Below, piece after piece: positions 1,130 through 64,000 of a stretch of DNA of 64,000 nt. The notes beneath the pieces were generated by a model. It did no database searches. It had not been told where the DNA came from and saw only the letters and a program-made list of their open reading frames with translations. The position numbers were made by a program, and so were the translations under genes. Position 1 is the stretch's first letter; every line of letters begins with the position of its first letter. Origin of the DNA: Owenia fusiformis (taxonomy: Eukaryota > Annelida > Polychaeta > Sabellida > Oweniidae); NCBI GenBank assembly GCA_903813345.2, contig CAIIXF020000009.1, positions 29,858,740 through 29,922,739 of the forward strand, in the 5' to 3' direction.

Positions 1130-4100
1130 GTATGTAGTTGAACATTACATGTGTTCATTGCTTTTATGTATATTTATTAATTTTTTATTCAACTATTTGG
1201 TATTTGGGTAAACATTGGGGTCATCTGTAACTTGTGGTTTGGTAGTTGCATGTTACTAAAGAAAATGTAGGAATATTGTTGTAATAGGAACAATATGAGG
1301 TAGCAAAGTGTTTTCCCCAGTATATTTTCTTAACAAGGTGATGATATTTTTTTCACTCAATTTCACATTGACCATAATATGCCAATTTCTCATGATTTTT
1401 GATTTGAGTTATGTAAATGTGTTTTCAAGTTTGTCCTTGAAATTTCAATTGGAGCACAACAACTGGTTGCTTCAATGCTGGGGATAGTCCTGCGGAATGG
1501 AAGGAGGTGGTTTCCTTCTAGGATGTATGCTATGTCTTTATATTTTCTTTATCTATAGGTTATTTACTTTCAAAATCTGAACTGTGCCGATTTGGCACTG
1601 GTGGGCAAAATTTTTTACAGCATTGTATAGGCGGCGCCCCCTGTGAAATACCCCTTTAATTAAGGATTTTTTTTAAAATGATCTTGAGCAGAGTCTTAAA
1701 CTCAAATCACCTAATTTAACCTGTGGTATATCCTCAATAAGATGTCTATTTTTTTTCTTTACCTGAAATTTCATAATTATGGAGTAATGGTCATTTATCT
1801 ACCCTGGCGTCACATATTTCCAAAGGGGTCACTATGTTTTAAAGGCATAAAATTTGAACGAAGCAAAATTGTGATCTGAAAATATTCAATTATATGCCAT
1901 GATACATGTTTGGCAAAGTGTAAAAAAAACAAGCTTCTGTCTTATATAATTTAAGAGAAAAAAATTATTTGTTATTATATCCTATTGTTCACCGATATAC
2001 AAGTTATATGAAAAGCCACATTCAAAAATTTATTTTGACTAAATTTATCCTTAACACCAACATGGCTTTACTTTAAATAAAATATTATCTATATGTTATT
2101 GAATATAAAGGGACTATTTTAACACACACAAAAACTAAAATCAGGGATTGAGTACCTACTTGCTGTTCACAATTGCAGCGCCATCTTTTAAGGGGGAGGA
2201 AGGGTTAATTTTTTATGATACCGACATTCTGCCAATGACTGAATTGGTTTGAAAAAATGTTTCCATTAAAATTAGTACTAATCATTACTAAATTAATTTA
2301 CCATTATTTGTCAAGGATATTGTAGCTAATTGAATGTCAGTTTTTGTTCAGTTATCAAGGGTCTCATTTCTGGTCTCTTTATCCAGTACTTCCTGAACAG
2401 CTTGCAGAACAATTTCATCATCAAGATCATCATCTTTTGTTTCATTGGTGACTGTGACCATTAGTCTGGTGTGTTCATTGCAACACTCTTCTCCGCCTTT
2501 GCAAAGGCAAAATATAGTGCAAGACAAGGCAGTCTTACGGCAAAGACAACGATCTGTACCACATATGTTATCATTGCTGGCACAATTACAATGTATCATC
2601 TTTAGCACTGAGTCTGGTGCGCATGAAACATTTGGTGGAAGGGTAACGGGCACTAACATGTTGTTGACAATATCCATTTGCCAGCCATACTCTGTTGGTT
2701 TCAACTTAGGAGGTAATGGTTTGTCTGCATGTTTCCACAGGGATGTTTGTAGATGAGCACGTTTTACATGTTCCTCAAAGGCCTTGTTTGAAGGTGGCAA
2801 TGACCGTAGTTCTTGGGATTTAGTAATGTTCTTGGCAGCATTTTTCTTGGTCCACACTTCATATCTAACATCAGACATAGTTTCAGATGACTTTGGATTG
2901 ATGCCATAACATGCTGCTATGAATTTAGTAGCCTGTGTCACTACATCTGATATTGGTATATTGTCTTCTCCAATCAGACTCAAAGGAGCATTTCCAGTCT
3001 TGATTATGTTAACTGCCTTAGTCTTGCCTATGCGGTAAAGACTGGATGTTGTGTCACAGCCTGTCAGGCTATGGGCAGCAAGCAGTTGTGAGGTGACATT
3101 TTTGTTGGAAGCTGACTCCTTCAATTTATTTACAGATGCTTTGATGTTAATAACTTTTCTTCCAGCTAACACAGACTCCATAGTAACATGGGCAATTAGA
3201 TGGTGTTTATCATAGTGGTGAAGCAACAGGATGAAGACATCAGTGTCGTCACATACAACATTGATATTTTTACTTCCAGTCTTGGTTGCAGCTAGCATCT
3301 GGTGCACCATAATGACATCTGCTTCCTCATGCTCATTTTTCAGGTCAACCCGTTGACTAACAACTCCCCGATAGATTTGCATAGGCACTGGGTCAGGGCC
3401 TGTTATCACCAGCTTGTTGGCATTCTCACGAATAGTGCTCGTAAGATGATTAATGATTAAGTTTATCAGCTGAACTTTGTTTTTTGTTACATTGAGCACA
3501 ACATTCTGGGGAGGTAGTGGAGTGTTTGGTCCCAACTGGTAAATACGTGTATTATTGGCGCTTCGGGCAGAGCGAGTACACCCCTTAGGACTATGCTCGT
3601 GGTACCTGTCAAACACCAGATACACATCTGCTACATCATTCAGTTTCATCACATATTTTGTAAAGGCTGCACAGTAGCTACTGACAGTCCCTTGTACACT
3701 AGGCCATTGAATAGCCCATAAGATAGCACAACCATCTAAGATTTGGATCTCTGGTTTGTTTCCTCTTGCTGGCCTTTCAATTTTCAACATATTCTTCATA
3801 ACAGACTTGTTTGTTGGTGTTTTCAGGTTACCAGATTCATCGAACATAGAGGTAGGGATGGGTGCCAGCTCAAATGACATTACAGTTTTCATATCAAGTT
3901 GCCGGGTCATTACTAGGCCACAAACACGAGAGTAAACAAGATTGGTGTCATAGACAGGTGTTTCATCTACTTGTATGCTCTTTTTCCCAACAGCCATGGT
4001 CACAACCTAAAAAATATGCACCCTTTATGGAATAAAAAGTAAATCTAAATCAATGAAATAGAGATAAGAGGTTGAATAGGTTATCTAAATAAGACTGATC

Positions 4101-7100
4101 TCTGAAAATTCAAAATTTTTCTAATCTCAAAAATTATGTATTACCTTTGAAGTCAGTGGTTCATAGAATCCCTCAGGCCAGGTGGCTTCATATTTCACCA
4201 AGCACTCTCTACCTAGGATCACAGAGTCTTGAGCATTGACCTTGGCAGAGCTAATCCGTCCTGTAACTATGTTTATAACACCATCAGGATGACCACTAGG
4301 ATCTAGAGGATCGATTACAGTACTCAGGGATTCTCTGAGCTTCAGTCTGTCACTGCAATCACCATCAACATGTGTAAGACCCTCTTCTTTGTGTCTGGTC
4401 ACAACTGTGGATTGGGCCTTGACAGTTTCACCAAGGTCCTGGATATCGTTTAGGATCTGACTGCATATATGCATGCTGAGAGCCCATCTTTTGAGAAGAG
4501 TTGGACTGAGTGTGTTGCCTATAATTCCAGAGGGTCCATGCCCATACCTCATATATGTGGTTTCTATCATCATATCTGACCAGATTCCATTCCAAATACC
4601 AGGCTGATGACGGGTAACATGCTGTCCTTGTAGGAATTTCTCAACAACATTCTGTGGAAGTCTCTCCATGTCTCGAAGATAGAACAGTCCATACCTAGCG
4701 TAGTTGTAGTGTCGTGCAGCAAAGAAATAGGGTAGCATAGATTCAACAGCAGCCAAATGGAGCAGCCAGTTGCCTTCCCTTTCAGCCCTGACAAATTGCA
4801 TCATGATGAATACTGGCTTGATAACATTCTCCACCCACAGTTTTGTAGTTTTGCTTTCTGATGATCTAGTGTTAAGGACATCTATGAGTTCTTGATAACT
4901 GTTAACCTGATGAATTACTGGTCTCAAAAGTTCTTCAACAAGGAGTCTCAATGCTCGAACATTGTTAGGATAATTCTTGCCTGTTAACATCTTGGTAACC
5001 CCAGCAAAGGAAGAACTGAGTATCTCTACTATTCCACTGTCTGACATTAGAATGCCGACACAACCAACAAAACTCATGAGCATGTGCATGCCCCCAAGTC
5101 TATTGATGAATGTATTATCAAAGGTTGTTGGGGTCCAGAAAATGACATCAGTGGCTACTTTGTACAACTGCTGGTCTGTTGTCAAAATTGTGTAATCTTG
5201 CTTACATGCTTGGGTCATCTCCTTTGCCTGATGCATGATGGTTAACATTGTGCTTGGGTCTGCTGGCTTAACATCAAGAAGTGGCCTATAGGCAAGTTTT
5301 GTTGCAGGTTTAATGATGGCGCCACTAGTCCTCGCTAACCTAGTATTGTAGCCCCCGAATTCTGGTGTCCCTGGTACAGATGTAACACGACTAAAGAATT
5401 CAAAGTCTATCTCTTGGACTCTATGAACATGATCAGTTTGTTGTTGTAATAGATCATTATTGAGAGGCTGTCGTTTGGCTAATTCTGGAGGCATCTTTGG
5501 TTTCTTTGGACCATCATATATGCGCAACTCAATGTCTGGTAGCTCTGGACTTCTAGAAGCTTGCTTTGTTAGCCTAGGGATAGTTAAGTCAAAGTCTTCA
5601 TCATCATTTTCTACTTCATTACTGCTTCCAGATTGGGTTATCAGCATTGCAATAGCATGTGTTGATTTAAGGCCATTTTGTGAACAAATGTTAGCATCGA
5701 AGTTGTCTGTCATGACTTGTACTAGACCATTTTCCTGATTAAACAAACCCTGTTTTCCAATACGTGATTCCTCAGATTGTGCTGCACTAGACTTAAATCT
5801 TAACATCTCATCATATGAACAGCAGGTGTGGTATTGATGCATTGTGTCAATCATATTTCTGTCTTTCAGTTTAACACCTAGGTCTACTAGTAGTGGAGTA
5901 TACCTATTGGTCACAAGACTGGTAATCATATTGCCTATCATGATTGCTGGGAGGCATTCATAAGTTAGGCTCTTTGAAATCCTTGTTAACAACTTTATCA
6001 ATGTTGGTGATACTGGCCTTGTTGCTATGTCTTTATTCATTCGAATGTTGTATTTTCCATTTTCAGGTTGACGATCTTTGCTCTCATTTTTTATCTTTGC
6101 AGCAATATTCCCTATGTAGACATCATCAGTTTCTTCAGCAGCATCTTTATCATCTACCAGCTTGATGAGCTTATTTGCACCAGATTTATGCACCATAATG
6201 CTTGCATAATTGTGGCAAGAAAGAACAACATGTGTTGAAGCCAGCATTGTTTTCAGGTTTAACATCATTCTTTTTCTTTTAATGTTTCCACCATATTCCA
6301 GGTACAAATTATGGAGCTCTAATGAGTTCCAAATTTCATGCTGATGTTGATTCACATAGTCAGCCAACATGATTAATGCTTGGTCAGTTTCATCTGTTTT
6401 TTCAGATTTTAAATGGTCAATGTTTTTTTTATTTATGAATTTTTTGTAACAATCAAGGTGATAACGAGCTTCAACAGCATGTAAATCAGATACTGCTCCT
6501 TCAACACGTGTACGCACCTGTCGTGCAAGCTCATCACCCCGTTCATGACAAATTCTCAGGATATTGCTTTTGAAACTTGCTTGGCCAATTTCTTTTCTAT
6601 CACCAGTTCGGCAATAAACTATTTTTGATCCTCTGTTTGGATGCTTGGGATCTTCTTTACATAAGTTTCCGCAAAATAAGCAATTAAATTGGAAATGGAA
6701 AAGTTTTTCTGAATGCCTTGTCCGCTTAGGTGATGAGGGAGTAGCATTTAATGTCCCACTGTCTGATTTCCCTGAGTGTCGACGACAATGTTCTTTTGAA
6801 GTATAAGTCGAAATACAGGAATGATGGGCTCTTAGGGTCAAAGTTGGGTTTTCTAGCAATTTTTTCTCAAGCTGATCATGAATATCATCATCTCGTCGTT
6901 TGCTGTAATCTATTATAGTTCTAACACGTTTTGTTGTTATATTATTAGTCTCTTTTGCTGAACCGGGGCATGACAGGTGTGAGTTGTCAGCAAAGAAACA
7001 GGGATCCATCCTGGAATAATCAATCATCAATTGTTTTCACAATTAAATCTCATTGAAATCTAACTAGACTTAACAAAATCTTGTCATTTATTGCTAATTA

Positions 7101-10100
7101 TGCTATTTTCTGACTTCCAAATCAAAGAGAGATATGTGTTACCTGATTATAATGGTATCCTTATTTCACTGTAGTAATCATTTCCTAATCTTCTTTCTTG
7201 ACTTATCTAACTCATATATGCTTCTGATACTTGTACAAGAAACTGTAAAATACTGACCTAAAAGGACTGTACTCCAGATTTCATGTTTATGCTATCAGGA
7301 ATCTACCCAAAAAATATCCATTGATCATTCTCTGATGTAACAAGCAAATAAACAATACTGGAGGTGAACTTGCTACACTGTTTACATTTTCCAGTACATG
7401 GTCTAAAATCTAATCCTTACACAACAAAGATGACCTTCTGTTTGAACTGTCAACAATGAGTTTCTTTAACATTTTACACCCGTACCTCTACCCCCCCCCA
7501 TCCCCATCCCCATCCCCCCCCATCCCCACCCCCTCCCCCTATTAAAGGGTATACATTATAATTTTCTGAAATATTTTGATTTAAAGAACATATGTATATA
7601 ACATAAATAGCTTAGTAAGATACAATCACAGAATCTGCTGATATTATACTTTTTAATGTTTCACAGTGTTATTTTCTATCCATATTAATATTGCTGGATA
7701 TAAGGTTGTCTATATCAATATTTTTTTTCTCTTCAACTAAATAAAATGCAACTCTCATATTTTCACACTTTCTCTAACATAGAGTAATTCAAAGTCATGA
7801 ATAATTTCAGTTCACAATTTTGTTTAGTTTGCAAAATATGCTTATTAAACATAGTGACCCCTTAAAAATAGGTGGCGCTAGGGTAACAAATCAAGCATAT
7901 CTTATTAATTATGTGATTTTATATAATGAAACATAATTGACATGTAGTTTAGGTTAAATATAGTTTATCTGAATTGGTTAAAGTTTTCAACTCTACCAAC
8001 AGCCCTTTAAAAAAAATATTTTGTGGAATGGGCATATTATACGGGGGCGCCCCCTATACAATGCTGTAAAAAATTTTGCCCGCCAGTGCCAGACCGGCAC
8101 AGTTCTGATTTTGAAAGAAAATAACCTATAGATAAAAAAAATACAAAGATATAGCATACATCCTGGAGGGCAACCAAAAGTTTCAATATGCCATTATTCC
8201 GCTGGACTAGGAGATCACTTACAGTATAGGATTTCAAAGCATGGATGTTTTATAAGCTTGGATATTGGATGCTTTACTTATACTTCATTGCATGGATTTT
8301 CTCTTTAGGTCATCCTCCCAACAGACCAATGGTAGCCACCCATAAAGAGGCATCACCCCCTAGGAATGACTCTTCCAATCGTGAACCAGTCCATTTTAGA
8401 CCAACAGACCGGTCCACTAATGCTGGAAGAGGGGGGATAGCTAGTTGTCCTACTACCCCTCTAGTAGGGCGTAAACTAGGTCGTAGATTAGATTATGAGA
8501 ACTTAGATTCAATGAACAGTGATTTGATGAGTCACCCAACTCAACCTGTCCATGATAGACCACCATTAGGATTAGGTATAAAATATCTTCTTATTGGACA
8601 CATTTTTTCTCATATCTTTAGAATAGATGTTTGTTTTGTTAATTCTAACATACAACATATGCATGTCTCGTCTTCAAATTTTTTTCAGAAACTTATTTTG
8701 TTGAAATATTTTGATAGTATAAGGTGTTCTAACAAAGTGTTCGCTGCACTCTCCTATGTTAAAGTTTTGCCATGATATCCTTTGTATATAGAAAAAAATT
8801 ATGAGGTATTCTTGATTATCTTGAGATAATGTTTTGGATAATATCCAACATCCAGTAAATAGATGGCATATGGGTTTATGTTTGTATGTTGATACATCAA
8901 TAATACATCTCACACCCTTTTCCCATTGCTCCTCCAAAATTACCATTTAAGTTCTAAAAGTAATCAGAGATTTAAGTCTCAAGGCATGGGGGACGATTTT
9001 TTTTTATATATATACATTTTGAACCCCTTACACATACATGTATATGTATACTAAGCAGAATAAACCTTGGAATTGGTTAATACCATCCCTACATCTAACC
9101 TCACATACATACATAAGTCACAGTGCACTATTTCAGCTGGAGAAGAAAGAGCTGAATGGCTATGTAGCAAAGCTGAGGATCTAATAGAGCAGTCACTCCT
9201 GAAGGAGAAAGAGGGAGACCTCCCAATGTCCATGTGTTTGTGTACTAATGCAATAAGTAAGTCTCTGCCTAACATCACAAGATACCAAAAAATATATATT
9301 AAATGTCATTTCTCTACTCCAACATTGAAGTAAGGGAGAATGTTTGTGTCCAAATATTCCTCAAGAAACAATGTATTTTGTTGTATTATAAAGTATTCTA
9401 TGTTCACGATTATACTAACCAGTGAAAATATTTAATGTAGATAAGTTTTAATAACCACAATTCTAGTTATGTGTGATCTGTTTGATGTTTTAGGCCTTTG
9501 ATTTCATGGAGCAAAATCTTTCTTTGGATATTGTATTGTACACTCACAATCATATTTTCTCATATTAAATTACAACTTTCTGGCCTATTTTGAAATTTTT
9601 AACAGCTACAGTATATCCACTCTTATGGCAATAACGCCAAGTAATTAACCAAATCTTATGTTATTCCAGCATATCTAAAAGAAGCTATGACATTGGGGAA
9701 CATAAGCCAACAGAGCGTGATCCATGCCCAGATGAAGCACAACACAAGTGTTCTGAGGTCACGTAAGCTGCACCGTATGATCCAGCAGACGAACAAACAA
9801 GATTCAAGTAGCGTCACAACCAGCGAAACTGGGAGTGAAGACAGATCGAGGTAGGTGTTTGTAAGAACTTTAATGTGATATAAAGAGATTTTGTGCATGG
9901 TTCTATTTAACATAATGCACAGACTTAACACAAGGATATCATTTGACCTTTAGATTCAAACTTATGAAATCAATTTCTAAGAATGAAAACATTTTCAAAT
10001 TTTTCTTTTTCAGCCTGAGTTCCATGGAGCCTGCATACCCTCCTCAAAGGGAGCCCCTAAAGAATCTAATTGACCTCTCAGAGAAACCAAAGGAGCAACA

Positions 10101-62107: not shown

Positions 62108-62262
62108 AAATAACCTCACAACTTATAGGAACTGTGATAAAGAATTATAATTATTATATACCCCTCTGCAATAAAATAACATGACCTAATTCTTGTTTGG
62201 GCACAGTAGAACTTTATTTAATCTAAATTGTTTACAAATAAACAAAGCTAGTTTCTACTCCC
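62108..62262 (-). repeat. B1 split direct repeat
   Basis: 155 bp, identical by eye to 61529-61683. Its right end covers the last five codons, including the stop, of the recombinase. Confidence 0.9.
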
Positions 62263-63273
62263 AAAGTTGCCCAAACATGAAGTAGGTTTTGTTGGTAAGT
62301 TGTGTAGAAGTGACTTAGCAAGTTTAATGTTCATATCATCTGATACACTGAGGAACTCCTTATAACAGTCAGAGCGCCAATCACCAAGAATTCTTATCAA
62401 TTCTGGATTTGCATTTTGAGACAGGGCAAAGCTAGCCCCGCCCCTTCGAAAACTATGTCCGGAATACTTATCCCCTGGCAAACCCACAGCTTGGAGACAG
62501 GATCTCAGTCGGCTTGAGAAGAAATTATAAGTCAGTGGTGAAAAACCATTGCGAGTATTGCAAATAACAAAGGCTGGACCCTGAGTGGGTGCAGTGGAAG
62601 TACACTGAAATGCCCACAGAATGGCATGTACAGGACACAATGGATGTCCATCATTAAATGGTAAGGGAATACGTAAAGTGCGACCATGAGTTTGAATGGT
62701 TTTTGACCACCTTATGTTTACAATAAATCCCATAGTGGGATATAATGAGAAATCATCTCTAGTTAAGTGCCTACTGGGATTGAACCCTGTGGCTGTTGGG
62801 CATGCTATATTTGATTTACGTAACATTCCATAAAACCCTGTTAAGCAGGCAGCCCAAAAGTTGGCATCTGTCTGATCATTCAGGTTTAATTGAGTTCTAA
62901 TTTGTAACAGAATCTGAGGAGTGATAGGGAGCTTCTTTGTAACATGAGTACCTAGGTCCCTGTTCACTCCTTTTAAGACCATTTGTAAATGCCAATTAGA
63001 CCACACAGGACTCTCCAGAGAATGTTCTTTATGTAAGATTGTGATAATGTTCAAGTATTGTTTCACAGAATTAGCTTTTAATGTTTCTGCTAAATATGCA
63101 GCATAGCGACATAATGTAGACGTTGATGCGGGTACAGGTGTATATCCCATTGTTCTGCAAAAATCTAGGTAAGATTTACGATGGGTGCTGTAGGTACGTT
63201 TGGTACTTGATGCAAAGGCCATGTCTGTGAACCGAGAGACAGCTTCATCCAATTGCTTTTCCATTTCCACCAC
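62248..63273 (-). CDS. Tyrosine recombinase of the retrotransposon
   Basis: About 338 residues from ATG 63264 (the frame opens at GTG 63273, upstream of that ATG). An N-terminal SAM-like DNA-binding part (SSTKRTYSTHRKSYLDFCRT) precedes the catalytic domain. This has Arg in FYGMLRKSN, the HSFRRGG box (HxxR) and GDWRSD. At the usual nucleophile position, eight residues after that Trp, the sequence has Phe (CYKEFL, codon 62353-62355) rather than Tyr. A Tyr lies three residues earlier. The stop (62248-62250) lies inside the B1 repeat. It normally integrates the circular cDNA without target duplication. Confidence 0.85.
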   Translation of the reverse strand: MVEMEKQLDEAVSRFTDMAFASSTKRTYSTHRKSYLDFCRTMGYTPVPASTSTLCRYAAYLAETLKANSVKQYLNIITILHKEHSLESPVWSNWHLQMVLKGVNRDLGTHVTKKLPITPQILLQIRTQLNLNDQTDANFWAACLTGFYGMLRKSNIACPTATGFNPSRHLTRDDFSLYPTMGFIVNIRWSKTIQTHGRTLRIPLPFNDGHPLCPVHAILWAFQCTSTAPTQGPAFVICNTRNGFSPLTYNFFSSRLRSCLQAVGLPGDKYSGHSFRRGGASFALSQNANPELIRILGDWRSDCYKEFLSVSDDMNIKLAKSLLHNLPTKPTSCLGNFGSRN

Positions 63274-64000
63274 TTGACCACCTGCGGAATAATAGAATGC
63301 AGTGATGTTTTAGTCATATGATATACGATACTATGGGGGGTCAAGCCACAAAATGGATAAAGTCCCTCAGACAAGAGGCAGTCTAAGCGTGATAATTGGT
63401 GAGCCTGGTGCAGTCTGGATATTGCATCAGGGATGCAATTAAGGTGTCCTGGAATGTGAATAGCTTTCACATCAAAGTTGTACATAACAGACAACCAGAA
63501 GAGTTCACGCAGCACAGACATCACTAAATTGTCCTTTGATGTTCCCTTGTTTAGCAGATACATGGCTACTTTAGAGTCTGTGTGAATAATTACCATCTTG
63601 TTAGTCCATAACTGACCCCACCTCCTGGCAGCAATCAGAAACGTGATAACCTCAAGATAGTTTATATGTAGAGAGGATGCCGCAGGCCAGTCTGATGACC
63701 AATTTGTATAACACCAGTCACCTTGGTGATAAACTCCTGCTCCTACTCCACAGGCATCCATGTGCACATCTGTTATGGGAAGTGACTCCAAGAATAGAGC
63801 CTTCCCATTAAAAGTATCTAGGCACTGTATCCACCATTCTAAGTCCTGGTAAAAATGATAGTCCAGTTTTACCTTATGCGAAGTTTTGCGAAGTGTAGTC
63901 ATAGTTTGTAAGATACGACGAAGGTAAGTTCTACCTCCTCTTACAAGTTGGGACGCCCAATTGAGCTTCCCTGCGAGTGACTGCAATTGTTTTAGGGAGG
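63165..64000 (-). CDS. Reverse transcriptase (C-terminal) and RNase H of the retrotransposon, partial
   Basis: The frame is open at the window edge, so the polymerase palm domain is off-window. It opens with a connection/thumb-like LAGKLNWASQLVRGGRTYLR. RNase H follows with its four acidic positions: DVHMDACGVGAGV, NYLEVITF, IIHTDSKVAMYLL and CIPDAISRL, plus IPGHLN. The 3' end overlaps the recombinase frame by about 100 nt in another frame. Confidence 0.85.
   Translation of the reverse strand, partial: SLKQLQSLAGKLNWASQLVRGGRTYLRRILQTMTTLRKTSHKVKLDYHFYQDLEWWIQCLDTFNGKALFLESLPITDVHMDACGVGAGVYHQGDWCYTNWSSDWPAASSLHINYLEVITFLIAARRWGQLWTNKMVIIHTDSKVAMYLLNKGTSKDNLVMSVLRELFWLSVMYNFDVKAIHIPGHLNCIPDAISRLHQAHQLSRLDCLLSEGLYPFCGLTPHSIVYHMTKTSLHSIIPQVVKWWKWKSNWMKLSLGSQTWPLHQVPNVPTAPIVNLT

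Follow-up and report, generated by a model that had tools for sequence, protein, structure and literature searches.

Within the Academ superfamily of DNA transposons, the length of the target site duplication (TSD) has been linked to the enzymatic equipment of the element, being 3 or 4 bp in the nuclease-encoding AcademX elements and 9 or 10 bp in the helicase-encoding AcademH elements (PMC10045372). The AcademX lineage is traced to Kapitonov and Jurka 2010 and Kojima 2020, as cited in PMC10045372. Curated Academ elements of bivalves have a mean length of 5,565 bp, and in the mollusc-centred survey that describes them the superfamily was nearly confined to bivalves, two annelids having yielded few ORFs (PMC10294476).

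The window analysed here, a stretch of 64,000 nucleotides from the annelid Owenia fusiformis, contains an element that is very probably an autonomous Academ-superfamily DNA transposon of the nuclease-bearing AcademX type. A sequence-only reading of the window had proposed a complete Academ-like transposon with 0.5-kb inverted ends, a 3-bp target duplication and long open frames, located antisense in an intron of a host gene. These claims were followed up by comparison with the remaining copies in the genome and by analysis of the encoded protein.

Element boundaries and target sites

The element spans positions 1485–8209 of the window (6,725 bp; the coordinates proposed earlier are exact), from the first T of TAGTCC at 1485 to the last A of GGACTA at 8209, and its termini correspond to TAGTCC(T/A)GCGGAAT (Table 1). 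The outer ends of the terminal inverted repeats (TIRs) are 15 bp long and contain one or two mismatches (one within the outermost 14 bp), and are followed inward by a short unmatched stretch and then by the long arms (1508–1975 and 7712–8176), in which 360 of 478 aligned columns are identical (75 % with gaps, E = 4e-75), the best gapless block being 134 bp at 91 %. The proposed 0.5-kb inverted ends are therefore present, but they are imperfect. Since the only near-twin of the element, on contig C6, has between-arm differences identical to those of the window copy, the imperfection of the arms is a family trait and not the result of decay of the window copy. A C-rich simple repeat at 7490–7540, inside the element and upstream of its gene, differs in length in the twin.

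Table 1. Features of the Academ-like element (positions in the window)
Feature	Position	Strand	Basis
Left TSD, GGA	1482..1484	.	Flank read, both-end copies compared
Left terminus, TAGTCCTGCGGAATG (outer TIR)	1485..1499	+	Sharp boundary common to 23 other copies
Left long inverted arm	1508..1975	+	75 % over 478 aligned columns; 134 bp at 91 %
Exon 2, 552 aa + stop: XPG/FEN1-like nuclease, Cys cluster	2348..4006	-	
Cysteine cluster CxC-x6-C-x4-CxC-x6-C-x3-CxC plus extra Cys (CXC/Cys8 type)	2480..2590	-	
XPG-like core, acids D91, D133, E228, D230, D254, D256, D318 (exon 2 numbering), then GK motif	3023..3736	-	
Intron, 138 bp, phase 0, GT-AG	4007..4144	-	Splice sites; intronless 1,468-aa relative in L081
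Exon 1, 955 aa from ATG: N-terminal Cys/His region, putative DDE transposase core	4145..7009	-	
Right long inverted arm	7712..8176	-	Arm-vs-arm alignment
Right terminus, inward reading TAGTCCAGCGGAATA	8195..8209	-	End sequence read
Right TSD, GGA	8210..8212	.	Flank read, both-end copies compared

A search of the 498-Mb genome, in which the window is located at G000:C9:29858740, with the left end of the element returned at least 28 left ends. Besides the window copy, 23 copies begin exactly at TAGTCC and have unrelated flanks, while the remaining left ends are truncated or altered at the tip. The possibility that other copies would end at different points, or that TIR-bounded copies would be missing elsewhere, is contradicted by these 23 copies with the same start. 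Right-end stretches were extracted for 20 copies, and both termini could be read in 12, every one of which is flanked by a 3-bp TSD (GGA, TTG, ATA, ATG, CTT, TTT, ATT, TTA, ATT, CTT, ATA and TGT). When the flanks of these 12 insertions were joined, with the trinucleotide retained once, and searched against the genome, uninterrupted empty sites that are continuous across the junction were found for six insertions. One of these sites has more than 12 paralogues at 99–100 % over the full 197 bp, another matches at 100 % over 201 bp and the others at 88–97 %; two of the six are at 100 % identity. The six insertions with empty sites hit other repeats, the intact copies of which represent the target before insertion. 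No empty site was found in the same genome search for either the window insertion or that of the twin.

The empty sites fix both the ends of the element and the 3-bp length of its TSD. As TA is the outermost dinucleotide at either end of the element, a single copy is ambiguous: the TSD might really be TA, the element GTCC...GGAC and the GGA match fortuitous. However, the trinucleotide outside the TA matches in 12 of 12 copies, and the empty sites hold a single trinucleotide and lack any additional TA where the flanks meet; a TA-dinucleotide TSD was therefore rejected and retains next to no probability. The same applies to a composite structure, or a chance pair of unrelated inverted repeats around host sequence, which the mere 75 % likeness of the arms could suggest, but which is refuted by the recurrence of the whole unit elsewhere with identical ends and by the empty sites of sister copies. 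A complete TIR-bounded transposon with a 3-bp GGA duplication on both flanks, as originally described, is thus confirmed by its exact ends, the copies sharing those ends and the empty sites.

Plus-strand open frames occur on either side of the element, and phase-compatible splice sites, a GT donor and an AG acceptor, lie near 1131 and 8311, respectively. The proposed antisense insertion within a host intron is likely and plausible as judged from the sequence. At the far end of the window (62248–63998, minus strand), adjacent frames resemble a tyrosine recombinase (weak Phage_int_SAM_4 match, E 0.0098) together with a region similar to RNase H, and look like those of a DIRS-type retrotransposon.

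The encoded protein

The antisense gene of the element consists of a joined frame of 1,507 codons without an internal stop. The join between the exons is supported by a relative on contig C10, in which both parts lie in a single intronless frame of 1,468 codons. The long open frames noted earlier are intact and are better described as two exons of one protein.

In an alignment of exon 2 that includes a 23 %-identical relative, nine acidic columns are invariant between residues 60 and 400, and seven of them match the catalytic acids of XPG/FEN1 in order and spacing. Only 3 of 200,000 random placements fitted the same spacing windows, which were chosen after the motif was seen. The last acid is followed by RIGK in the window copy and by GxGK in most relatives. 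The protein resembles the Rad2/XPG nucleases (FEN1, EXO1) in having the seven acids in the same order and at similar spacing, as well as a GK-containing motif after the last of them, but differs in that the profile similarity is not significant. The exon 2 profile did not match archaeal FEN1 significantly (29 of 200 shuffles reached the score), and a PDB profile search with exon 2 returned Exonuclease 1 only, as a weak match (E about 1). The window element's own proteins, from both exons, had no match in Pfam, nor did sequence searches against the PDB yield a significant match for either exon. A single-sequence AlphaFold model of the nuclease part was discarded (pLDDT 35). The acids and their spacing favour the XPG-like nuclease previously suggested, while profile similarity does not.

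The Cys8-type finger is borne out by eight cysteines in CXC-type spacing, which are present in the window copy and conserved with minor gaps in relatives, and the cluster gives weak TCR/CXC matches. Its pattern is presumably the published Cys8 motif.

The invariant acids of exon 1 (D435, D438, D579, D612, E743, D812 and E816) include a candidate DDE triad. Searches with relatives of exon 1 reached only sub-threshold similarity to DUF6589 (best E 0.0012) and to a hAT-like RNase-H domain (E 0.09). No relatives were found among viral contigs.

Classification and Academ diversity in the genome

The element shares with AcademX the 3-bp TSD, the long TIRs, a typical size and one large protein that combines a putative XPG-like nuclease with a Cys8-type finger. 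With AcademH it has the superfamily in common, whereas AcademH encodes a helicase and generates a 9–10-bp TSD (PMC10045372); neither exon of the element has a Pfam match, and hence none to a helicase. The 3-bp TSD and the putative nuclease, in place of a helicase, suggest that the element belongs to the AcademX lineage. The kind of element is known, while the family is new. The probable assignment to Academ is based on the TSD, the TIRs, the nuclease acids and the cysteine cluster, the Academ references having been compared by description.

The weak affinities of exon 1 (DUF6589 and hAT-like RNase-H), together with the fact that Academ is known here by description rather than by direct sequence comparison, would be compatible with a cut-and-paste element of another superfamily (e.g. 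Kolobok, hAT, KDZ-like or CMC) whose likeness to Academ is superficial. We consider this improbable in view of the 3-bp TSD, which is seen in 12 of 12 copies and again in five members of a sister family, as well as the presence of XPG-type acids and a Cys8-type cluster in one protein. The TSD of hAT elements is 8 bp, and that of Kolobok is the 4-bp TTAA.

The Academ complement of the genome comprises at least 89 protein matches in several families. Sister families exhibit approximately 50 % protein identity, and their ends also read TAGTC. Five loci (L037, L039, L040, L042 and L060) hold palindromic Academ derivatives of about 3.3 kb each, composed of nested inverted blocks of approximately 1.3 kb per side (about 96–97 %), in which the part of exon 2 that encodes the C-terminus is inversely duplicated around a nuclease core and no match to exon 1 is present. 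Their ends, TAGTCTGG...CCGGACTA, resemble those of the full-length L033/L034 family, and their 3-bp TSDs are TAG, TTT, GAT, CTA and ATA. A more distant Academ-like lineage (L138 and matches on C1, C9, C180, C10 and C267; 27 % identity in exon 1 and 23 % in exon 2) has single frames of approximately 1,450–1,620 codons, several copies of which contain no stop; the L138 frame fuses both halves.

Recent activity and possible mechanism

The only close twin of the window copy, on contig C6, shows 42 substitutions relative to it (0.63 %) as well as a single 364-bp insertion, and its gene contains two stop codons. Between the two copies, dN is approximately 0.0034 and dS approximately 0.0091, a dN/dS ratio of about 0.37 that is based on only 21 changes. 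The insertion lies at positions 6125–6488 of the twin (L061), between 10-bp direct repeats, and other copies are without it. In a search with the last 45 bp of the insert and the adjoining element sequence, these 45 bp were found alone at many unrelated loci, while other Academ copies matched only the element sequence beyond the insert. The insert is a mobile repeat nested within the twin and has the appearance of a MITE that made a 10-bp duplication. A deletion in the window copy was rejected as the source of the 364-bp difference on the grounds of the multi-locus occurrence of the insert end, the other copies without the insert and the direct repeats.

The remaining copies constitute a second group, which is 86 % identical to the window copy and 93–99.7 % identical mutually (first 0.4 kb), and whose coding remains contain many stops. 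Some sets of copies, for example L011, L014 and L017, are near-identical in the first 0.4 kb and are located at different loci. According to the simplest reading, these defective copies were probably mobilized in trans recently. The element has been recently active and its family has recently spread, in agreement with the suggestion, made from the long open frames, that the window copy may be recently active; the intact ORF, the near-twin and the near-identical relatives at different loci all support it.

The observations on this family show that insertion is precise and duplicates 3 bp, that the ends are shared, that an intact gene is present and that spread has been recent. With regard to mechanism, we infer that the element protein would bind both ends, and that a putative DDE-type core in exon 1 would excise the element and join it to a target cut with a 3-nt stagger. 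Strands at the element–flank junction might be trimmed or nicked by the XPG-like domain, the cysteine cluster may bind DNA, and protein supplied by intact copies could move defective copies in trans. That the XPG-like nuclease itself takes a catalytic part in transposition (e.g. by cleaving the non-transferred strand) and determines the short 3-bp stagger, unlike in the helicase-bearing AcademH, is a tentative and rather doubtful proposal. The palindromic derivatives that retain only the nuclease core hint that the nuclease half can persist and be amplified on its own.

To our knowledge, the biochemistry of Academ transposons has been little studied. The exact ends, the unbroken gene and the sister copies with empty sites make this element a practical starting point for an excision and integration assay, and the window copy is also useful for asking what role the fused nuclease plays. 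Moreover, a rich Academ complement is hereby documented in one invertebrate genome.
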